From contig NZ_VCAO01000003.1 in assembly GCF_005884405.1 (NCBI RefSeq), positions 372,001-436,000 on the forward strand: a stretch of 64,000 nt of DNA. Direction: 5' to 3'. Origin of the DNA: Qipengyuania marisflavi. Its GTDB lineage: Bacteria > Pseudomonadota > Alphaproteobacteria > Sphingomonadales > Sphingomonadaceae. The notes beneath the pieces are model-generated. The model did not search any database and had not been told where the DNA came from. It was given only the letters and a program-made list of their open reading frames with translations. A program made the position numbers and the translations under genes. The stretch's first letter is position 1, and each line of letters starts with the position of its first letter. Positions 9,037 through 56,482 of the stretch are shown in pieces.

Positions 9037-9741
9037 TCAGTTGCCAGCGCGGTCGCGGCGGCGTTCGTGCCGCTGGCTGCGCATGGCATTGTGCCCGGCC
9101 TTCAGCTCGGCTTCGGAAAGCGAGCCATTGGCATCGCTGTCCATCATGCCGAAATGTGCGGTGATGCCGGCATCGAATTCGGCGCGCGACACCGATTTGT
9201 CTCCATCGGCATCGGCCATCGCCAGCATGGTGTGAGCGCCGCCGCGCATTCCGTGATGGCCGCCGCGTTCGCCCTTGCCGCCACCCATGCGGTGCTTGCC
9301 GCGCTTGCCGTCACCCATCTGGTGGCCGCGGCCTTCGTGCGCTGTTTCAAGTTCGGTTGCGGACAGTCCGCCGCTGTTATCAGCGTCCATCTTGGCGAAG
9401 CGATCGGCCATGTGATCGCTGCGGCGCTCACTGCGCTGCTGCATCCGTGCGGCATGGGCGGCCTGCATTTCGGCCTGCGAGATTTCGCCATCACCGTCGG
9501 CGTCCATTCCGGCGAAACGCTCGCCCATCTTGGCCGTACGGTCGGCAGCGTTGATCGCGCCGTCATTGTTGACATCCATCCTGGCGAACATCTGCGCGCC
9601 ATGCGCCTGCATTTCCGCCAGCGTTACTGCGCCATCGCCATTGGCGTCAGGGTTGGGGCGGTCATGATCGCGGGCAAGCGCAGCGTGCGCGCCGGTCAGC
9701 GCCAGTGCGGCGGCTGAAAGGGTCAGGGCAAACTTCTTCAT
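9037..9741 (-). CDS. Secreted protein with six EF-hand calcium-binding loops
   Basis: A 234-residue protein with a clear signal peptide (cleavage probably after AHAALA). At least six EF-hand loops can be read: DANGDGAVTLAE, DVNNDGAINAAD, DADGDGEISQAE, DADNSGGLSATE, DADGDKSVSRAE and DSDANGSLSEAE. The third is canonical; the fourth and fifth deviate. Between loops four and five lies a Gly/His/Met/Lys-rich linker (about residues 135-170) that could bind another metal. It is probably periplasmic and is the first gene of an operon with the response regulator and kinase. A GGAGAA ribosome-binding site precedes the ATG. The arrangement suggests a calcium- or metal-responsive circuit, which is inference. 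Confidence 0.88.
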   Translation of the reverse strand: MKKFALTLSAAALALTGAHAALARDHDRPNPDANGDGAVTLAEMQAHGAQMFARMDVNNDGAINAADRTAKMGERFAGMDADGDGEISQAEMQAAHAARMQQRSERRSDHMADRFAKMDADNSGGLSATELETAHEGRGHQMGDGKRGKHRMGGGKGERGGHHGMRGGAHTMLAMADADGDKSVSRAEFDAGITAHFGMMDSDANGSLSEAELKAGHNAMRSQRHERRRDRAGN

Positions 9742-9835
9742 GGTGGTTCTCCGAATGTAAAAACGAAGAGCTGCGACGGTGCCTGCAACAGGGTGAGGGG
9801 GGGAAAGTGGCCGACCCGCCGCAACTCATGGATTG

Positions 9836-9933: not shown

Positions 9934-10332
9934 TCAGCGTGGGCGATGCTGGGTGCCCTCGCCAGCGGTGATGAAGATCGCGGTGGCCGTTCCTTCGACA
10001 TTGGCGGTGTGCCAGACGCCCGGCGGATTGACGATATATTCGCCCGCTTCGAGCATGACCGTCTGGTCTGTGCCGCCGTCAATTTCCTGGATCAGAGTCA
10101 TCTGGCCAGCGGTGCAGATCACCACTTCGCTGCCATGCGGATGCATTTCCCAGCTGGTCCAGTCTTCGGTAAACTCATATTGCGACACCAGCCGCCCTTC
10201 GGCCCCGTCCGCGCCGTGCCGCGCGCCATAGCCTTCGTACCATTCCATGCCCGAAAACTCGGGCTGCGGCACCGCAGTCGCACCCAGTCCGAGGTGCAGG
10301 AAGCTTTCGGACAGGGTGCGTTTGTCGGTCAT
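9934..10332 (-). CDS. Small cupin-domain protein
   Basis: A 132-residue single cupin. The first motif reads WEMHPHGSEVVICTAG with two His and one Glu as probable metal ligands, and the second EYIVNPPGVWHTANV with the closing His. Small cupins of this type include isomerases, dioxygenases and sensors; nothing here distinguishes among them. The ATG lies one base after the stop of the upstream VOC-family gene, so the pair is co-transcribed and probably functionally linked. Confidence 0.8.
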   Translation of the reverse strand: MTDKRTLSESFLHLGLGATAVPQPEFSGMEWYEGYGARHGADGAEGRLVSQYEFTEDWTSWEMHPHGSEVVICTAGQMTLIQEIDGGTDQTVMLEAGEYIVNPPGVWHTANVEGTATAIFITAGEGTQHRPR

Positions 10333-10333
10333 G

Positions 10334-10729
10334 TCAGGACACTTTGTCCATCAGGAAGGCGTTGAACTTGTTGCCATCGGGATCGCGGAAATAGGCGGCG
10401 TAGAAAACCACGCCAGTGGGGTCCGGCTCCCCGCGCGGGCCGGGTGCGCCCTCGTCACTGCCGCCATTGGCAAGCGCGGCATCGTAAATCCGCTGTACAT
10501 GGTCGCGGTCCTTTGCTTCCAGCGCCACCATCGTGCCATTGCCGGATGTCGCAGCCTTGCCATCGAACGGCTTGGTGGCCGCAAAGCCCGGCGCGCCGCC
10601 CATTTCGCCCCAGGCGATAAAGCTGTCGAATTCCATCATCCGCCCCACACCCATTTCCTTGGCGATGGCGTCATAGAAAACGGCGGCGCGTTCGAGATCA
10701 TTGGTCCCGAGAGTAACATAACCAAGCAT
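10334..10729 (-). CDS. VOC (glyoxalase/bleomycin-resistance) family protein
   Basis: A 131-residue protein with the paired beta-alpha-beta-beta-beta modules of the vicinal oxygen chelate superfamily. It starts MLGYVTLGTNDLERAAVFYD, typical of the family, and ends with the signature YFRDPDGNKFNAF, whose acidic and Asn residues often form part of the metal or substrate site. It resembles the uncharacterised bacterial VOC proteins rather than true lactoylglutathione lyases. The ATG at 10729 is chosen because the conserved fold begins there; the open frame to 10891 lacks family similarity. Operon with the cupin downstream. Confidence 0.85.
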   Translation of the reverse strand: MLGYVTLGTNDLERAAVFYDAIAKEMGVGRMMEFDSFIAWGEMGGAPGFAATKPFDGKAATSGNGTMVALEAKDRDHVQRIYDAALANGGSDEGAPGPRGEPDPTGVVFYAAYFRDPDGNKFNAFLMDKVS

Positions 10730-10787
10730 GCGATTTCTCCTATCAAGCGACTCGCAGCATCGGAACATTATGGGAACATAAGTGCTT

Positions 10788-12608
10788 CTACAAGGGTGCG
10801 CATTCGGCTTCGAGCCAGGCCAGATCATCGCCATCGAGCTGCGGCGCGAGGATAGCGCGAACCTGCGCGTGGTAATCGTTCCACCAGGCAATTTCGCGCG
10901 GTGTCAGCATGGTCTTGTCGACCAGCCGCCGGTCCAGCGGCACGAAGGTCAACGTCTCGAAGCCCAGATATTGGCCTTCGCTCTGAGCGATATCGGCGGC
11001 CACGGTCAGGATCAGGTTTTCAATGCGAATGCCGTATTCGCCTGCTTTGTAATAGCCCGGCTCGTTCGACAGTATCATGCCTTCGCGCAGCGGTGTTTCG
11101 GTTCCGGGGAACGCGCCGCCGGGCTTGGAAATCCGCTGCGGCCCTTCATGCACCGACAGATAGCTCCCGACGCCGTGGCCGGTGCCGTGGCCGTAATCGA
11201 CACCGCCAGCCCACAGATGCATCCGCGCCAGCGCATCCAGTGCGCCGCCGCTGGTGCCATCGGGGAAGACCGCCAGCGCCAGTTCGATATGACCCTTGAG
11301 CACCCGCGTGTTGCGGTCGATCATTTCCGCGCTCGGCTGCCCCGGCCCGACCCACACGGTGCGGGTGATGTCGGTGGTGCCGTCATCATATTGACCGCCC
11401 GAATCGCACAGGAAAATGCTGGAGGGCGGGATGGTGATGTTGCTGTCTTCATCAACCTTGTAATGCGGCAGGGCGGCATGGCCCGCCGCGGCGCTGATGG
11501 TGTCGAAGCTGGTATCGCGCAGCGCAGCGCTCTGCCCCCGGAATTCGCGCAGTTTGGCTGCCGCGCCCAGCTCGTCAAGCTCGCCCTTGGGCGCCTCCAC
11601 GCTCAACCAGCGCAGGAACCGCGTCACCGCCGCCCCGTCGCGCGCCTGAGCATCGCGGTGGCCCTGTTGTTCGGCGGGTGTCTTGATCGCCTTGGGCAAC
11701 ACGGCGGGATCGGCATCGCGCACCAGCTTCGCGCCGCCTGCCTGCAAGGCGTAGAATATGCCTGCCACCGCGTGCTTGGGATCGACCGCGACAGTCTTGC
11801 CCGACAGACTGCCCAGCGTGGGCAGGAAGTCCGCACGGTCGCGGACCTTTACCGCATTGCCGAGATGCTGCGAGAGTTCGGGGCTGACCTTTTCGGGCGC
11901 AATGAACAGTTCGGCAGTGCCATCGGCATGGGCGACCACATAGGACAGGGCCACCGGCGTGTTGGCCACATCGGCCCCGCGCATATTGAGCAGCCATGCC
12001 ACCGAATCCAGCGCGGTGATGACTGTGGCGTCATAGCCTTCGCGTTTCAGCCAATCGGCAATTTCGGCGCGCTTGTCGGCGCTGGACCGGCCCGCGAATT
12101 TGTCGTCATGCGGGACCGCGAGCGCGGCGGAGGGCGCCGGGCGATCCTGCCACACCGTGTCGATCGGATTGCTGTCCACCGGCACCAGCGTGATGCCGCG
12201 CTTGGCGAACAGCGCCTCGGCATCTTCGGCCCAGTCAATGCCGTGCAGCCATGCGTCATAGCCGATTTTCGCTCCCTGCGGCGCATTGGCGGCAAGCCAT
12301 TTGGCCGGGCTGGTGGCGGGGACATCCTCGTAATCATAGAGCTCGCCCGACACCTGATCGCGCACCTGCACGGTATAGCGGCCATCGGTAAACATCGCGG
12401 CACCCTTGCCCGAAAACTCGCCCGCCAGCACCGCCGCGCTGCCTGCGCTGCCGCCAAAGCCGGTCAGCCAGGCCAGCCGCTGGGCATATTCGCCGACGTA
12501 TTCGCTCATATGTTCGTCCGAGATCGGAATCACAAAGCCGTTCAGCCCGCGTTTGGCCAGTTCCTTGCGCAGGGCGTCGAGGCGGGCTTCATGGGTGTGC
12601 ATCAGCAT
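10788..12608 (-). CDS. pepP: Xaa-Pro aminopeptidase (M24B)
   Basis: A 606-residue three-domain aminopeptidase P of the long, eukaryote-like type, removing N-terminal residues before proline. Two creatinase-like N-terminal domains precede the pita-bread catalytic domain. Metal ligands are readable: Asp pair in DSGGQYDDGTTDITRT, His in GHGTGHGVG, Glu in NEPGYYK and Glu in GIRIENL. No signal peptide, so cytoplasmic. It is divergent from the prolyl oligopeptidase gene at 12752; both act on proline-containing peptides. The start could be the first ATG (12608) or the third codon (12602). A short hairpin (12635-12649) lies in the shared upstream region. Confidence 0.92.
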   Translation of the reverse strand: MLMHTHEARLDALRKELAKRGLNGFVIPISDEHMSEYVGEYAQRLAWLTGFGGSAGSAAVLAGEFSGKGAAMFTDGRYTVQVRDQVSGELYDYEDVPATSPAKWLAANAPQGAKIGYDAWLHGIDWAEDAEALFAKRGITLVPVDSNPIDTVWQDRPAPSAALAVPHDDKFAGRSSADKRAEIADWLKREGYDATVITALDSVAWLLNMRGADVANTPVALSYVVAHADGTAELFIAPEKVSPELSQHLGNAVKVRDRADFLPTLGSLSGKTVAVDPKHAVAGIFYALQAGGAKLVRDADPAVLPKAIKTPAEQQGHRDAQARDGAAVTRFLRWLSVEAPKGELDELGAAAKLREFRGQSAALRDTSFDTISAAAGHAALPHYKVDEDSNITIPPSSIFLCDSGGQYDDGTTDITRTVWVGPGQPSAEMIDRNTRVLKGHIELALAVFPDGTSGGALDALARMHLWAGGVDYGHGTGHGVGSYLSVHEGPQRISKPGGAFPGTETPLREGMILSNEPGYYKAGEYGIRIENLILTVAADIAQSEGQYLGFETLTFVPLDRRLVDKTMLTPREIAWWNDYHAQVRAILAPQLDGDDLAWLEAECAPL

Positions 12609-42762: not shown

Positions 42763-43389
42763 ATGACACAGGACAACAAGGCGCGTGAACGCGACCGGCT
42801 GGCGGCGCTGGCGATGGAAGTTACCGCGCGCCGCGGGGTCGAGGTGACACCCGAAATCCTCGCGGGCGAGTCCGGGCTGTCACGGGCGCGCATCGATGCG
42901 ATTTTCCCCGAGAGCAGCAATCTGTTTGACGCGGTCGCCGAACGCTGGTTCGCGCCGCACATTGAAATTATGGAAGCGGTGATGGCCAGCGATTTGCCGG
43001 CCAATCGCAAGCTGTACGAATTTTTCGCGCGCCGCTTCGTGCATCAGCGGGCCTATTTCCGCAGCGATCCCGACACTTTTGCGCTGCTGTGCGATCTGGG
43101 TTCGCGCCGGTTTGAGCGGGTGCGATCCTATATCGATCTGGCGGATCATTATCTGTGCGAACTGATCGCGCAGGCGCAGGACGAAGGCTATTTCGCGAAG
43201 CTGGAGATTGACGAGGCGCTGAGCCTGATCAACCAGATGGTGGTCGCCTATACCATGCCCGATATGCTGATGATGCTGGATGACCGGCTGAGCGAGGCAA
43301 AGTTGGGCGCGATTATCGACACCCTGTTTGCCGGGCTTTCGGGCAGCGACGGCGGCGCGCGCGGACGCAGCAGCCTGCACGCCGCATGA
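42763..43389 (+). CDS. TetR-family transcriptional regulator
   Basis: A 208-residue regulator with an N-terminal helix-turn-helix (RRGVEVTPEILAGESGLSRA, then IFPESSNLFDAV) and an all-helical C-terminal domain without recognisable ligand residues. The recognition helix region is less canonical than in TetR itself, so assignment rests on the overall pattern and length. The stop overlaps the glycosyltransferase start (ATGA), suggesting that it controls its own operon or the divergent polysaccharide genes; no clear operator was found. Confidence 0.75.
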   Translation: MTQDNKARERDRLAALAMEVTARRGVEVTPEILAGESGLSRARIDAIFPESSNLFDAVAERWFAPHIEIMEAVMASDLPANRKLYEFFARRFVHQRAYFRSDPDTFALLCDLGSRRFERVRSYIDLADHYLCELIAQAQDEGYFAKLEIDEALSLINQMVVAYTMPDMLMMLDDRLSEAKLGAIIDTLFAGLSGSDGGARGRSSLHAA

Positions 43390-44624
43390 CCGCAGGGCCG
43401 CCGCGCAAAATCCTTTTCATCGGGCTGAATTACGCGCCCGAACCCATCGGCATCGGGCCGTTCAGCGCGGGTCTGGCGGAATCGCTGGTGGCACGCGGGC
43501 ACCGGGTCCACGCGGTGGTCGGACAGCCTTATTACCCCGACTGGAAACTGCATCCGCGCTTCAAGGGGCGCTGGCAGGCGAGCGAGGAAAACGGCGTCAC
43601 CGTGATGCGCTGTCCGCATTACATCCCCGCCAATCCAACCGGCAAGAAACGGCTTGCGCACCATATGAGCTTTGCCAGCAGCGCCTATCCCGCCGCCCGT
43701 GCGGCGCGGCGGGCGCTGGAACCCGATCTGGTGTTTACCGTCGCGCCGTCACTGGTCGCTGCGCCGGTCGCTGCGCGTATGGCGCGGCGCGAGGGCGTGC
43801 CGCTGTGGCTGCATGTCCAGGATTTCGAAGTCGGCGCGGCCTTTGCCACCGGCCTGCTCGACCGCGAGGGCGGAATCGCCGATGCCGCCACCCGGTTTGA
43901 AGACAGGATGCTGCGCGCGGCGGACATGATCTCGACCATCAGCGAACCGATGTGCACGTTGCTGACGCATAAGGGCATCCCGCCCAGCCGGGTGCTGGAA
44001 CTGCGCAATTGGGCCAATCATGCGCAGCAGATCGCAGCGGCTGACGGCGGCGGCCTGCGCAAGGAATGGGGGCTGGAGGGCAAATTCGTCGCGCTCTATT
44101 CGGGGAACATCGCCAACAAACAGGGGCTGGAGGTGGTGATCGAAGCAGCGCGCCGTCTGGCCCATCGCAGCGATATAGCCTTTGTGGTTTCTGGTGAGGG
44201 GCCAAACCGAGTGCGGCTGGAGCAGCAGGCGCAGGGCCTGCCCAATATGCAGTTTCGCGACCTTCAGCCGCCCGAAAACTTCGGCGCGCTGCTGACTTTG
44301 GCGGATGTCCATCTGCTGCCGCAATTGCCCGGTGCGGCCGATCTGGTGCTGCCGTCCAAGCTGGGCAATATGTTCGCGTCGGCCCGCCCGGTCATCGCCA
44401 CAGCTGCGCCGGGGACCGGCATCGCGCGCGAGGTTGAGGGCTGCGGGATAGTGATCCCGCCGCTGGATGATGCGGCAATGGCGCAGGCGATCGAAGCGCT
44501 GGCAGCCGATCCGGCACGCCGCGCGGAAATGGGCGCAAATGGCCAGCGACGCGCCGAGGCGCTGTGGTCCAGGACTGCGATTGTCGACAAATTCGAAACC
44601 GCGATGCAGGCGTTGCTGGGCTAA
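43386..44624 (+). CDS. WcaI-like glycosyltransferase (GT4)
   Basis: A 412-residue GT-B enzyme. The N-terminus (KILFIGLNYAPEPIGIGPF, then VVGQPYYPDWK) is the signature of WcaI-type transferases of exopolysaccharide clusters; the nucleotide-binding half has YSGNIANKQGLEVVIEAA, VVSGEGPNR and LLPQLPGAADLVLPSKLGNMFASARPV. It probably adds a sugar in capsule or exopolysaccharide synthesis. Convergent with, and overlapping by four bases, a second glycosyltransferase. Confidence 0.88.
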   Translation: MTAGPPRKILFIGLNYAPEPIGIGPFSAGLAESLVARGHRVHAVVGQPYYPDWKLHPRFKGRWQASEENGVTVMRCPHYIPANPTGKKRLAHHMSFASSAYPAARAARRALEPDLVFTVAPSLVAAPVAARMARREGVPLWLHVQDFEVGAAFATGLLDREGGIADAATRFEDRMLRAADMISTISEPMCTLLTHKGIPPSRVLELRNWANHAQQIAAADGGGLRKEWGLEGKFVALYSGNIANKQGLEVVIEAARRLAHRSDIAFVVSGEGPNRVRLEQQAQGLPNMQFRDLQPPENFGALLTLADVHLLPQLPGAADLVLPSKLGNMFASARPVIATAAPGTGIAREVEGCGIVIPPLDDAAMAQAIEALAADPARRAEMGANGQRRAEALWSRTAIVDKFETAMQALLG

Positions 44625-45844
44625 ATCCCCATATCAGCGAGCAGCGCCGCGATATTGCCGCGATAAGCGTCAAAACTGAACGCCTGCGATTCGCGCCATG
44701 CCGCCCGGCGCATGCCCAACAATACATCACGGTCGGCTGCCATCGCCGCCATCGCCTGTTCCACCCCGTCCGCCGATGGCGCGTCCAGCACGATGCCGCT
44801 GTTCGCCGATGCGCCCAGCCCCGCCTGACGGCTCTGAATGATGGCGAGGCCCGAGGCCATCGCTTCGAGCAGGATGATCGCTGAGCCTTCGTAATGGCTG
44901 GGAAACACCAGCGCCTCGTGCTGCCGCATGATCGCCGGGACCGCGCTGCGTGGTTGTTCACTCAGCCAGTCGATCCGTTCGGCATAGGGGGCCAGCATCC
45001 GGTCGGGCACCATGCGCGGGCCCATCACGCTGAGCCGGGCATCGCGGCGTGGCAGACGCTGGACTGCTTCGAGCACATGCTGGATGCCCTTGCGCGGCGA
45101 AACCTGACCCGCGAACAGGAAGCGCACCGGCTCTCCCGAAGGCGGCGGCACCGGTTCGGGCGCTCCGCCGAACAGCGCGGTGTCGAAGGGGTAGGGCAGC
45201 ACGGTCAATTTGGCGTCGAGACCGGCGGCTGCGCTGTGGTCACGGATGCTCTGCGCCACGAAGGGGCTGCCGCAGACGATCCGGTCGGCATGGGCGTATT
45301 CCAAATCGTCGCGCGCAATCTGAGCAGCTTCGGCGGGCCACGGCCCTTCCGCCAGCCAGCCCGGATGACTGGCGCGGATCACTTCCAGCTCGGCGTTCCA
45401 GAAGCGCCAGTCTGCCACTGTGCGGTCGAGGATCTTGGGGCAATCGCGCAGCCGCGGATCGGCGAAGGCGCGCGCCGATGCGCCGTTGAAACCCCATAGC
45501 GCGAGCGGTGTTTCTCGCGCCGCTTCCCCCGCCAGCCATCCTCCAAAACGGCGATTGCCCAAGCGGTCAATCCGGCGCGCTAATCGCCGCGCGCCAAGCT
45601 TGGCGGCAATCCGTTCCACCCATTCCTCCGCCCCGTGGGTGCGGACCAATGCGGGATCGAGCGCGGGGAAGCGGTGCCCGGCCAGCGCAGTGTCCATCGC
45701 GCGGCCCAGCGGACCGGGCCAACGCTTGCGACCGGGATGGTCGAACAGGCTGGTGGCCAGGAAGGCCAGAAGCTCAAGCTGCTGCAACGCCAGCGCGGTC
45801 TGGCGCGAATGCTGCGTACCAGGATGGAAAACGGCGACTTTCAT
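44621..45844 (-). CDS. Glycosyltransferase family 4 protein
   Basis: A 407-residue GT-B transferase. N-terminus MKVAVFHPGTQHSRQTALALQ; the C-terminal donor domain has FLFAGQVSPRKGIQHVLEAV, VMGPRMVPDRML and the GT4 motif FPSHYEGSAIILLEAMASGL. Acceptor and donor sugars cannot be told. It lies next to the WcaI-like enzyme and upstream of, but divergent from, the spike-like cassette, which in phages and gene transfer agents recognises surface polysaccharide. Confidence 0.88.
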   Translation of the reverse strand: MKVAVFHPGTQHSRQTALALQQLELLAFLATSLFDHPGRKRWPGPLGRAMDTALAGHRFPALDPALVRTHGAEEWVERIAAKLGARRLARRIDRLGNRRFGGWLAGEAARETPLALWGFNGASARAFADPRLRDCPKILDRTVADWRFWNAELEVIRASHPGWLAEGPWPAEAAQIARDDLEYAHADRIVCGSPFVAQSIRDHSAAAGLDAKLTVLPYPFDTALFGGAPEPVPPPSGEPVRFLFAGQVSPRKGIQHVLEAVQRLPRRDARLSVMGPRMVPDRMLAPYAERIDWLSEQPRSAVPAIMRQHEALVFPSHYEGSAIILLEAMASGLAIIQSRQAGLGASANSGIVLDAPSADGVEQAMAAMAADRDVLLGMRRAAWRESQAFSFDAYRGNIAALLADMGI

Positions 45845-45952
45845 TACCCCAGCCTATCGCGCATCAAATACCCCAGCGCAAAAAATCATTTTCCTACACG
45901 GCAATCGCTGATTAACCGATCTGGCTCTTTTCAAACAAGGAGCAAACCGGAA

Positions 45953-46384
45953 ATGAATGATCCGATTCGCGTTGAAGCACCCGGCGGCTTCGCCCCCCTG
46001 ATCGCGCTGGGGCAGGAAGACGCCGCAGGGATTTGCGCCGCCGTCGGCCCGGCCAATCCGCTGCCCACCTTCGCCGCCCGCCCGCAATCACCCGCGCCGC
46101 TGTCCGGTCAGGCCGCCGCACCGCAGGTCGCCGGGCCGTTCACGCCTGCACCCTTCGCGCCAGTCTATCTGCGTCTGTCCGGCGCATGGGAGGGCAGCGT
46201 GCGGCTGCTGCGTTCGACCGATGGCGGCGCGACCAAATTTCCCGTCACGATTGGCGGCGCGCAATGGGGGGTATTTGCCGCCAATGCTTGTGAGCCGGTG
46301 TGGGAGGACAGCGAAGCGGGGGCGGAATTGTATCTGGAACTGACGCCGCAATCGGGCACGATCAGCTACCGGGTGTCGCAATGA
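45953..46384 (+). CDS. Phage-type small structural protein, candidate head-spike base (GhsA-like)
   Basis: A 143-residue protein with a Pro/Ala-rich first half (about 1-72) and a compact domain reading VYLRLSGAWEGSVRLLRSTDG, GGAQWGVFAANACEPVWEDSE, and TISYRVSQ at the end. This pattern (a sandwich-fold domain for 'strands with Asp-Gly-Gly' followed by Glu-x-Glu-Ala-Gly) recurs in phage virion proteins adjoining tail or head spikes. No signal peptide. AAGGAG lies ten bases before the ATG. It overlaps the beta-helix gene by ATGA, so the two are made together. The resemblance to RcGTA head-spike genes is inference. Confidence 0.55.
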   Translation: MNDPIRVEAPGGFAPLIALGQEDAAGICAAVGPANPLPTFAARPQSPAPLSGQAAAPQVAGPFTPAPFAPVYLRLSGAWEGSVRLLRSTDGGATKFPVTIGGAQWGVFAANACEPVWEDSEAGAELYLELTPQSGTISYRVSQ

Positions 46385-48333
46385 GCGGGCTGGCGCTCCC
46401 GGCGCTGGGGCTGGCGCAGCGCGCGGTGCAGGCCTTGCCCGCGCTGTTCGCCGATCTCTCGCTGCGCAGTCCGGCGGGCGAAATAGTGCTGTTGGAGAGC
46501 AGCGGATATGCCGCAGCGGGCAAGGGTGCGGCGCGCTATATCGCCGATGATTTATGCGATGCGGCACTGCTGGACGCGCATCCGCGTTTCGTGTTCGCTG
46601 CCGCCAATGGACGCATCTTTCGCCTGTTCCCCGAGGCCGGTTCGCTCAGCGCCGAACAGGGCGGGGCATTGGGTGACGCCTTGAGCAATGACCAGCCCGC
46701 AATCCAGGCCGCGATCGATTATGCTGAGGCGATCGGCGCGCGCGAGCTGCGTTTCGAAAGCGCGCATTACCGCATCCACTGCCCGGTCCGCACGTCGCCC
46801 GCCGCCGACACCCGCGCGGAGGATGGCCATCCGCTCGTGGTCCGCCGCACGCTGGCGCTGCGCGGCTGTGCACCAGACCGCAGCGTGCTCGATTTTCGCG
46901 GGGTGGGCGGCGCCGATCCCGACAGCAATTGGCAGACAGTCGCGCGGTCCGTAGCGGACTCCGCCCCGGCGGTGTGGCGCGGCGGCGGGCTGTATGTTCA
47001 GGGCGACACCCCGCGCCCGACCACCCAGCCGCGCCGCATTGCCCGGCTGACGCTCGACCGGCTGGTGTTGCAGGGCAACCGTACCCGCACCGGCGTCGCC
47101 ACCTGGCCCGCCGATCCCGTAACGGGCGACGGGTGGGACATATCGGACAAGGCGTTCTGGTCGCAGGATTGCTATCTGGGCGAAATCCACTGCACCGATA
47201 CCGATATGATTGGCTGGCGCGGCGAGATTTTCTACCTCGCCGGAGCGGTCGATGCGGTGCGCCGGTTAAGCGTGACGAGGTGCCGCTTCCTGACCACCAA
47301 TGGCAATGCTTTCAATCCCGGCGTCGATTGCGATCTGGTGGCGCGCGACTGCGAATTTGGCGATTGTTTTCAAGCGCAGGAGGAAACCGGCAAGACCAGC
47401 GCGGTCTATCGCAATTGCCTGTGGCGCGATTGCGAAACGCTCGGCCTGGGCAGCGGCCCGGCGGGCGGTTATCTGTACAACATCGCCTTTCCCACTCGTG
47501 ACGAGGCCGCCGCGCCGCCGGCGACTGTGCTGGATGGCTGCCGATTCCATTCCGCCGGGCTGCTGAGCATCGCCAGTTGGGTGCGCGGGCATATCGTCAC
47601 CGTGGATACGCGCGTGCATATGACCGGCAATGCGGCGATGGCGCTGCGCGATGTCGATCTGAAAATCGACGCGTGGATCGACCGCCGCCCGTCGTTTCAG
47701 GCGCTGACATTCTACGGCGTCTATACGCTGACCGAAGCTGTGCCGGGCGCGCCAGCAGACACGCATAAGCAGCCGCCCACGCAGGTGCGGATCACGCTAC
47801 GCCATTTCCGCACCGCACTGGCCGAGACGCTGGGCAATGAGTGGCTGGGCATAGTGTGGGCAGGCTATATCGCGCGCAATTGCCGGATCGCGGTGTCGGG
47901 CGATTATGCCAGCGCGCGCACGCCCAATGGCGGCGACAATCCGCTGTCGATGCCCTTCGTCGCCTTTACTGGCGGGACGGCGACCACCGCTTACACGCCG
48001 CAGGGCATCTACAAGGGTGCGAGCCTGAGCGCGTCAGGCGTGCTGGCACCCGCCGGTCCGCTGATGGCGCTGGCGGTGACTGGCGAGAGCGCCTTGGCGC
48101 TGACCCTGCCTGCCTATCCGGCGGGCGGCGCAGCTTATGGTTATGCCGACCGTCAACAGGTGCGGCTGGTGAAACAGCTCGATCAGGGCAGCGTGACCTT
48201 TACCAAGGGTGCCGCGCCGAGCATGGCGATGATGGCCACCCGCACACTCGACCATAGGGATGACTGGATCGAATTTACTTACAATCGCAGCCGCGCGCGC
48301 TGGGAGGAAAGCGGGTTCTTCAGCACCGCCTGA
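46381..48333 (+). CDS. Right-handed beta-helix protein, candidate head/tail spike (GhsB-like)
   Basis: A 650-residue protein. Residues about 1-75 resemble the neck region of phage spikes (LRSPAGEIVLLESSGYAAAGKG, then ARYIADD), about 100-125 match the start of a pectate-lyase-3 domain (NDQPAIQAAIDYAEAIGARELRF), and the rest has repeated short strands with many Asn, Asp and Gly, ending in a C-terminal cap (WIEFTYNRSRARWEESGFF). No secretion signal, which argues against a free pectinase. It overlaps the small protein gene and neighbours polysaccharide glycosyltransferases, as expected for a surface-sugar-binding spike. Confidence 0.6.
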   Translation: MSGLALPALGLAQRAVQALPALFADLSLRSPAGEIVLLESSGYAAAGKGAARYIADDLCDAALLDAHPRFVFAAANGRIFRLFPEAGSLSAEQGGALGDALSNDQPAIQAAIDYAEAIGARELRFESAHYRIHCPVRTSPAADTRAEDGHPLVVRRTLALRGCAPDRSVLDFRGVGGADPDSNWQTVARSVADSAPAVWRGGGLYVQGDTPRPTTQPRRIARLTLDRLVLQGNRTRTGVATWPADPVTGDGWDISDKAFWSQDCYLGEIHCTDTDMIGWRGEIFYLAGAVDAVRRLSVTRCRFLTTNGNAFNPGVDCDLVARDCEFGDCFQAQEETGKTSAVYRNCLWRDCETLGLGSGPAGGYLYNIAFPTRDEAAAPPATVLDGCRFHSAGLLSIASWVRGHIVTVDTRVHMTGNAAMALRDVDLKIDAWIDRRPSFQALTFYGVYTLTEAVPGAPADTHKQPPTQVRITLRHFRTALAETLGNEWLGIVWAGYIARNCRIAVSGDYASARTPNGGDNPLSMPFVAFTGGTATTAYTPQGIYKGASLSASGVLAPAGPLMALAVTGESALALTLPAYPAGGAAYGYADRQQVRLVKQLDQGSVTFTKGAAPSMAMMATRTLDHRDDWIEFTYNRSRARWEESGFFSTA

Positions 48334-48339
48334 GCCGGA

Positions 48340-50943
<2,604 letters not shown>

Positions 50944-55526: not shown

Positions 55527-56126
55527 TTAGTCGAGCAGGTCTGAATAGAGCGCCTCGAACCAGTCAGGGCGTTGCTCTGCCCGGCGCACGACCCGGGCAT
55601 TGCTCAATTCCATCAGTACGCGCGGCTTTTGATTGAGAGCCGAGGCATCGAGTATCTGCGCATTGTCAGCCAGTAACACCGCCTGCCGGATGAGCGCCTG
55701 ATTGCGTTCATAGCGCGCGCGCGTTTTTGCTTCGGGAACGTCGTGCCCTCCCTCGGCCCTGCGAGCGCGAACGCGGGCCACCGCGAGGTCCGGGCTTGCA
55801 ACATTGAGATGGAAAACCACGATGCGAAATCCCGCTTTGCGCGCGTAGCGGAGCAGTTCCAGCTTCGAGGGGTGCGAGAAAACCGTTTCCGTCACGAAGC
55901 TGCGCCGCTCGGCCAGAAATTCCCTGCGGCGTTCTTCGGCCATACTTGCCGCTTTATAGGACGCCTCAGGCGACGGATCGCACAATTCGTCGCGCTGGAT
56001 TAGGTCGGCATTTACAAAAGGCGCGGCGATCCGGCTTGCCAGAACGGTGTCGTAGAAAGTAGATTTGCCTGCCCCGTTCGGTCCGGCGATAAGGAACAGG
56101 GTTGGCCGGGACGGCGGCGACGCCAT
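55527..56126 (-). CDS. Zeta-toxin-family P-loop kinase (putative toxin)
   Basis: A 199-residue AAA/P-loop kinase. Walker A GPNGAGKST at residues 15-23, then NADLIQRDE and TETVFSHPSKLELL, matching the zeta toxin/Zeta-like family that phosphorylates UDP-N-acetylglucosamine and blocks wall synthesis. The ATG overlaps the stop of the upstream antitoxin gene (TGATG), the usual toxin-antitoxin arrangement. A non-toxic cellular kinase is an alternative. It ends five bases past the convergent guaA stop. Confidence 0.78.
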   Translation of the reverse strand: MASPPSRPTLFLIAGPNGAGKSTFYDTVLASRIAAPFVNADLIQRDELCDPSPEASYKAASMAEERRREFLAERRSFVTETVFSHPSKLELLRYARKAGFRIVVFHLNVASPDLAVARVRARRAEGGHDVPEAKTRARYERNQALIRQAVLLADNAQILDASALNQKPRVLMELSNARVVRRAEQRPDWFEALYSDLLD

Positions 56127-56482
56127 CAGCCCGGTGCAACCTCATCCGATTGCGCGACGATCACACCGTCACGCAGGCCCACGCCCAAGCCCTCAGCGCG
56201 GCGTGCGGTGAAGAAACGGTCCTGTTCGGCCGTGCCTTCGCGCGCTGCCTCGAACAGGCCTTCGACAAAGCTTTCCTGCTCGGCACACGAAAGCGCATCT
56301 GGACCAATTCGCCCGCCAAGCGCAGCGGCCACATGCGATTGATCGAAATCGCTTGAGCGTTCTATGGTCATGCCGATGCGCAACCAATGCCTCACCTGAC
56401 CCGCCAGGGAACGGCTCATCACCGACGCCTCACGCGCGACTATATCGATCAGTTCGTCATCAATCTTGACTGTCTTTGCCAT
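56126..56482 (-). CDS. ParD-like antitoxin
   Basis: A 118-residue protein. The first 45 residues match the ParD_like family (KTVKIDDELIDIVAREASVM, then SRSLAGQVRHWLRIGMTIE), a ribbon-helix-helix DNA-binding domain; the rest is acidic and probably wraps the toxin. It precedes the zeta-type gene with a one-base overlap. A perfect palindrome immediately upstream of its ATG is the likely autoregulatory operator. No ribosome-binding site is visible, consistent with a leaderless message. Confidence 0.8.
   Translation of the reverse strand: MAKTVKIDDELIDIVAREASVMSRSLAGQVRHWLRIGMTIERSSDFDQSHVAAALGGRIGPDALSCAEQESFVEGLFEAAREGTAEQDRFFTARRAEGLGVGLRDGVIVAQSDEVAPG

Follow-up and report, generated by a model that had tools for sequence, protein, structure and literature searches.

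The gene pair described here raises the question of why a small and a large protein, both predicted to have folds known from virus particles, should be encoded side by side next to polysaccharide genes. The window (the whole stretch of DNA that was analysed, 64 kb long and corresponding to positions 372001–436000 of its contig) belongs to a genome of 2.67 Mb. A sequence-only reading had proposed that the pair, hereafter the cassette, could be the spike unit of a sphingomonad gene transfer agent (GTA) that recognises the surface sugar produced by the neighbouring genes, or else the leftover of a prophage spike. Spikes determine which cells a GTA reaches; in the literature examined, the head spikes of R. 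capsulatus and a Rhodobacterales tailspike are described, and no spike for sphingomonad GTAs. The features of the locus, in window coordinates, are the following.

43386–44624, + strand: glycosyltransferase of GT4 type (Pfam PF13579/PF13692), co-occurring with the cassette
44621–45844, − strand: glycosyltransferase of GT4 type (Pfam PF00534), divergent from the cassette, with a common intergenic region
45889–45898, + strand: conserved element TTTTCCTACA preceding the cassette
45912–45928, + strand: GTA-type promoter box TTAACCGATCTGGCTCT, a 17 bp degenerate palindrome TAACC-N5-GGTT, matrix score 18.6
45953–46384, + strand: small gene P0001 (143 aa), whose product is GhsA-like in its predicted fold and a candidate for the base of a spike
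45953–46084, + strand: N-terminal arm of P0001, residues 1–44, candidate particle-docking part
46381–48333, + strand: large gene P0002, 650 aa, predicted right-handed beta-helix spike or fibre, presumed glycan-binding or glycan-cleaving
46381–46431, + strand: hydrophobic peptide MSGLALPALGLAQRAVQ at the N-terminus of P0002, a candidate for the plug that enters the base
48340–50874, − strand: gyrB, downstream of the cassette

The arrangement read from the sequence was confirmed at these positions, with the stop of P0001 and the start of P0002 sharing an ATGA overlap, and the polysaccharide glycosyltransferases said to neighbour the pair correspond to the two GT4-type genes assigned by Pfam. No phage genes for head, tail or lysis were found among the open reading frames of 38–56 kb, and inspection of the P0001 and P0002 sequences by eye revealed no signal peptide, both in agreement with the earlier reading. 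ARAGORN returned no tRNA in the window, and P0001 and P0002 are without match in Pfam and NCBIfam. Further downstream in the window (55527–56482, − strand), a zeta-toxin-like P-loop protein of 199 aa follows directly after a 118-aa antitoxin-like gene, and the two are a possible toxin-antitoxin pair.

The AlphaFold model of P0001 (pLDDT 88) comprises a loose N-terminal arm followed by a jelly-roll at residues 44–143, which bears out, at the level of prediction, the earlier description of a sandwich-like protein. The closest structural neighbour by VIA is YomS of the SPbeta prophage (Z 10.4), and the lower-ranked matches, to viral turret and protrusion jelly-rolls, include the turret proteins of HFTV1 (Z 7.7) and STIV. 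The N-terminal arm is conserved in chromosomal copies of the gene and is replaced or missing in the phage and prophage copies L139, L151 and L154. It may be through this arm that P0001 docks on a particle.

The AlphaFold2 model of P0002, predicted as a monomer with relatives supplied as alignment, is a right-handed beta-helix (pLDDT 90.9) with an N-terminal helix at residues 5–17, so that the beta-helix anticipated for the 650-residue protein is supported by the model. The best structural neighbour by VIA is the A-module of the AlgE-type mannuronan epimerase AlgE4 (Z 30.8), followed by the Vibrio polysaccharide lyase RbmB (Z 28) and by the beta-helical spikes of tailed phages, namely Sf6 and CBA120 TSP2 (Z 26–27) and phi29 gp12 (Z 25); the Foldseek matches include WceF of Pantoea stewartii (PDB code: 6TGF, E 4e-4). 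The pectate-lyase-3-like start that had been noted proved real but weak, with a PHROG tail spike match at E 0.016 and, using the family profile, a match to the AlgE epimerase start at E 3e-7. Residues E282, E334, D409 and D434 are invariant among the aligned relatives of P0002, and a known active-site pattern was not recognised. Structural similarity to spikes was obtained for the Sf6, CBA120 and phi29 gp12 tailspikes and, in the case of P0001, for viral turrets. GhsA/GhsB, the head-spike proteins of the R. capsulatus GTA (RcGTA), do not appear among the PDB structural matches listed for P0001 and P0002, which excludes nothing.

The second gene of the pair is not constant between loci. The small gene is retained, whereas its partner may be P0002-like, another beta-helix or an SGNH hydrolase, and these otherwise unrelated proteins have in common the N-terminal motif MxxDxIARGLA, of which the P0002 version is MSGLALPALGLA. 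A start of this type is also found on phage proteins in a motif search of viral contigs. The N-terminal peptides were compared by eye, namely MSGLALPALGLAQ in P0002, DxIARGLA elsewhere and IALGLGLGL in the RcGTA head fibre, and the peptide of P0002 may likewise be a plug into a base formed by P0001. A three-gene form occurs in L052, L053, L079 and L089, in which the small protein is followed by an SGNH hydrolase and then by a beta-helix protein; here it is the SGNH protein, encoded next to the small gene, that has the DxIARGLA start, and not the beta-helix.

In the RcGTA head spike, as seen by cryo-EM, the jelly-roll base Rcc01079 forms a pentamer that holds one fibre Rcc01080; the N-termini of the base attach the spike to the capsid, and residues IALGLGLGL of the fibre plug into the base (PMC7296036). 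The spike genes of R. capsulatus adjoin the capsule genes rcc01081–86 and are co-regulated with them (PMC10218006). The cassette is like GhsA/GhsB (Rcc01079/Rcc01080) in comprising two adjacent genes away from the head-tail cluster and near polysaccharide genes, in the predicted jelly-roll of the first protein and the apparent short hydrophobic N-terminus of the second, and, as judged from the box sequence considered below, in a promoter control that is apparently common with the GTA. It is unlike them in its outer protein, a 650-aa beta-helix (elsewhere an SGNH hydrolase or other beta-helix) in comparison to the 325-aa lectin-like fibre of RcGTA, and in that head-tail genes are missing from the window's genome. 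Phages RcapNL and RcapMu are reported carriers of GhsA/GhsB relatives, and their proteins served as stand-ins for Rcc01079/Rcc01080. The resemblance proposed by the earlier reading did not extend to sequence similarity, as none was found between the cassette proteins and the proteins of these phages. Family profiles gave no matches to GhsA/GhsB among PDB chains, and an indirect route to the RcGTA chains in the PDB by way of three RcapNL proteins also gave no match.

The P0001 family was found in 39 of 298 genomes of the order, all within the bacterial family to which the window belongs, and in 24 of 60 congeneric genomes; in a set of 385 genomes drawn from the class, it was represented in one other genome, by a short, weak match. 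Relatives of P0002 are present in 23 of the 298. In the loci examined the large gene is adjacent to the small gene, and the pairing is far above chance, with the small gene conserved and a low dN/dS in both genes. The syntenic order is a glycosyltransferase, usually a divergent glycosyltransferase, the small gene and the large gene; the divergent arrangement of glycosyltransferase and cassette recurs in 20 of 32 loci across genera. Outside the genus, small and large gene are embedded in larger polysaccharide loci containing polymerase-like genes of the repeat-unit type together with flippase-, Wzc-, Wza- and priming-transferase-like genes, and they sometimes adjoin lptC–lptA. Within the genus, 23 of the 24 genomes with a cassette have the glycosyltransferase of 43386–44624, versus 2 of 36 others; it tracks the cassette partly because it is adjacent, and in G050 it is located away from it. 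Both genes are under purifying selection (dN/dS 0.08–0.29), also between GTA-negative genomes, as for the large gene in the pair G222/G138, where both genomes are GTA-negative (dN/dS 0.12). Single broken copies do occur, with the small gene interrupted by a TGA in G138 and in-frame stops or frameshifts in the large gene of L062 and L073, and the unit can therefore be lost.

These observations bear on a particle-independent explanation, in which a phage-derived enzyme has been domesticated for the cell's own exopolysaccharide, which it would trim, modify or loosen, as WceF does for stewartan, and in which co-regulation with the GTA would arise merely from one starvation or lysis programme. The position in polysaccharide loci in most cases, the co-occurrence with a glycosyltransferase, the selection that persists without a GTA, the closest folds (AlgE epimerase and RbmB lyase), the SGNH hydrolases that fill the second-gene slot elsewhere and the precedent of WceF all speak for it. 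WceF is indeed a tailspike-like beta-helix from an exopolysaccharide cluster, but it has a Tat signal and a P22-type head domain (PMC7949094), whereas no signal peptide or dedicated export route is apparent for the cassette proteins; for WceF, neither a separate base protein nor a link to a GTA is described. Domestication also leaves unexplained the constant jelly-roll base, the phage-type N-terminal plug on unrelated enzymes and the specific sharing of a GTA promoter box, and we regard it as rather unlikely. The promoter box is what tips the balance away from a GTA-independent exopolysaccharide enzyme; the missing association within the genus, described below, still argues for part of this view.

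A conserved element is present upstream of the cassette in nearly all loci. Within the 1.85 Mb of loci that were fetched, TTTCCTAC-N8-22-TAAC has 28 matches, of which 27 precede a cassette and one is a chance match in a phage contig. RcGTA-type head-tail clusters were fetched from 16 relatives for comparison, and their promoter contains a palindrome-like box, AACCTATTTGGTT, approximately 8 bp before TTGACA. A matrix learned solely from 14 of these GTA head-tail-cluster promoters was scanned over 1.76 Mb, and the top matches comprise the GTA promoters and the cassette promoters. At a threshold score of 15, a box was found upstream of 35/55 cassette-family genes versus 2/887 other genes (Fisher p 5e-47), and both of the exceptions are divergent neighbours whose upstream region is the intergenic region of the cassette itself. 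In the window the best match is the box before the cassette (18.6), the runner-up in the 64 kb being a site inside gyrB (14.7). The background in a GTA-positive relative amounts to one site at or above threshold in 400 kb, sampled as twenty evenly spaced 20-kb pieces.

The cassette thus apparently shares its transcriptional control with the GTA head-tail cluster, the box being the shared regulatory sequence and membership of the regulon putative; the regulator of the box could be one that is not specific to the GTA. Since a box learned from GTA head-tail promoters recurs upstream of the cassette, an ectopic spike unit of a GTA is the most likely identity of the cassette. Specifically, we consider it probable that it represents the ectopic head-spike unit of an RcGTA-type GTA of the Erythrobacteraceae/Sphingomonadaceae, orphaned in this genome. 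The base/fibre plan published for RcGTA leads us to favour a head over a tail position, the position itself being putative. The P0001-type arm was also seen on other proteins of 115–453 aa (L143:9921, L144:9863, L147:9775 and L148:10167), and as these likewise have a GTA-type box, further GTA-regulated or particle-attached proteins may exist.

The term orphaned refers to the GTA genes themselves. The earlier reading had suggested looking for an RcGTA-like cluster elsewhere in the same genome; profile searches, on which its absence rests, gave no match there to TIGR02217, PF13550, portal or HK97 capsid. No head-tail cluster is detectable in the window's genome, and we therefore describe the cassette as an orphan unit of GTA-spike type and not as a functional GTA spike here. 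In the GTA-positive relatives G126 and G140 the head-tail cluster lies approximately 390 kb from the cassette. The proposed co-occurrence of cassette and GTA did not hold within the genus, where PF13550 marks a GTA in 12/24 cassette genomes versus 21/36 others (p 0.60, 60 genomes); outside the genus it did, with TIGR02217 (GTA gp12) in 18/20 strong carriers versus 135/255 non-carriers, an association with p 0.0009 that is uncorrected for relatedness. Pfam GTA_TIM (PF13547) proved useless as a GTA marker here, as it matched 0/298 Sphingomonadales genomes, among which matches to TIGR02217 are frequent; the megatron protein has apparently lost its TIM-barrel part in Sphingomonadales, or this part is unrecognisable. 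A broken portal remnant of phage or GTA type, with an in-frame TAA and a short match, was observed in G161 (G161:C2:834322–834585), the cassette of which is intact, and it is possibly a GTA loss in progress.

Taken together, the proposal of a sphingomonad GTA spike directed at the surface sugar of the locus is strongly, though indirectly, supported by an architecture like that of the RcGTA head spike, by the polysaccharide-gene neighbours and by the common promoter box; it is opposed by the lack of a head-tail cluster in this genome, of co-occurrence within the genus and of similarity to the GhsA/GhsB relatives.

Copies in phages provide an indication of where such a unit may come from. L139, an IMG/VR siphovirus contig on which genes for a tape measure and a central fibre J are present, encodes a 110-aa jelly-roll relative (profile E 1e-18, positions 45–143) that overlaps by ATGA an SGNH hydrolase starting MSIDSIARGLA. 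It is like the cassette in this overlapping pair of a small jelly-roll protein and an enzyme, and is likely to be of the phage ancestor type; the module probably derives from phage spikes. L151 and L154 are prophage-like copies of the unit. L139 surfaced solely via the N-terminal motif search of viral contigs; 50,697 phage records compared with P0001 and P0002 by tblastn yielded no relatives, nor did 2.9 million viral contigs scanned with family patterns. The phage copies differ from the cassette in the N-terminus of the small protein and in the GTA-type box, which is absent from L139, L151 and L154. In L139 two tandem small jelly-roll-like proteins precede the SGNH hydrolase (9458–9787 and 9944–11583), between tail-fibre and lysis genes.

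The phage-type folds, the copies in L139, L151 and L154 and the broken single copies of G138, L062 and L073 would be compatible with a functionless leftover of a decayed prophage spike. The dN/dS of 0.08–0.29 in both genes, the synteny and divergent promoter conserved across genera, and the N-terminal arm and box not seen in phage copies make such decay very improbable; given the purifying selection and conserved synteny, the leftover suggested by the earlier reading is unsupported. The cassette might also supply the spike of another particle in the same cell, such as a tailocin, a contractile injection system or an unrelated prophage, and a P2-type prophage (L055, G226:C13) does have a spike with an N-terminal neck as in P0002, at ~50% identity. 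However, no tail sheath was found in the window's genome nor in any of 12 GTA-negative carriers, and as the former also gave no match to a portal or an HK97 capsid, we attach very little weight to another particle.

Among the carriers compared the box is weak in the GTA-negative G161 and G265 and also in the GTA-positive G077, and it is kept in most GTA-negative carriers. This retention, together with the retained selection, favours an account in which the pair was once a GTA spike and in GTA-negative lineages would be a free, lysis-released polysaccharide-degrading enzyme comparable to TspA (Rcc02623), the detachable tailspike of Rhodobacterales GTAs. TspA is, like the cassette, an ectopic GTA-regulated beta-helix spike, and it acts as a free enzyme degrading biofilm polysaccharide (PMC13420450). 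Unlike the cassette, it is a single gene with a fused N-terminal beta-sandwich, it is placed on baseplate and tail, it adjoins lysS and not polysaccharide genes, and it is reported solely in Rhodobacterales. With lysis, release and catalytic residues all putative, this specific account is improbable. Where the GTA has been lost we can only infer the role of the pair, and by analogy with TspA a free polysaccharide-acting role may be the main alternative to a spike, or its successor, in this genome. A broader proposal, which we put forward tentatively and as one joint claim, is that of a GTA head-spike locus outside Rhodobacterales, with a constant jelly-roll base and an exchangeable polysaccharide-acting enzyme, situated among the genes for the receptor sugar and controlled through the GTA box, that selection maintains after GTA loss as the cell's free polysaccharide-acting tool.

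For the preferred reading of an ectopic head-spike unit, the following mechanism can be envisaged. The small jelly-roll protein would form a base seated on the particle via its N-terminal arm, and the large beta-helix protein would dock into the base by its short hydrophobic N-terminal peptide and project outward. There it would grip, and perhaps cut, the surface polysaccharide for which the adjacent glycosyltransferases are responsible, sugar binding being presumed; because the receptor locus adjoins the receptor-binding genes, the spike would be able to follow changes in this sugar. On an unchanging base, different genera would carry different outer proteins, namely several beta-helices or SGNH esterases, and transcription would be coupled to GTA production via the common promoter box and a presumptive regulator. 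A GTA spike unit is the simplest account of the base, plug, exchangeable outer protein, receptor-locus position and GTA box.

The cassette provides a testable spike candidate for sphingomonad GTAs, one that ties spike to receptor sugar both physically and through its promoter, and its persistence in GTA-less genomes bears on why hosts retain GTA parts. The box sequence is usable for finding further members of the GTA regulon. Another repeated element of operator-like appearance, distinct from this box, GTAAC...GGTTACATGTAACC...GGTTAC, was observed near the GTA cluster at L169:5009 and L177:3486.
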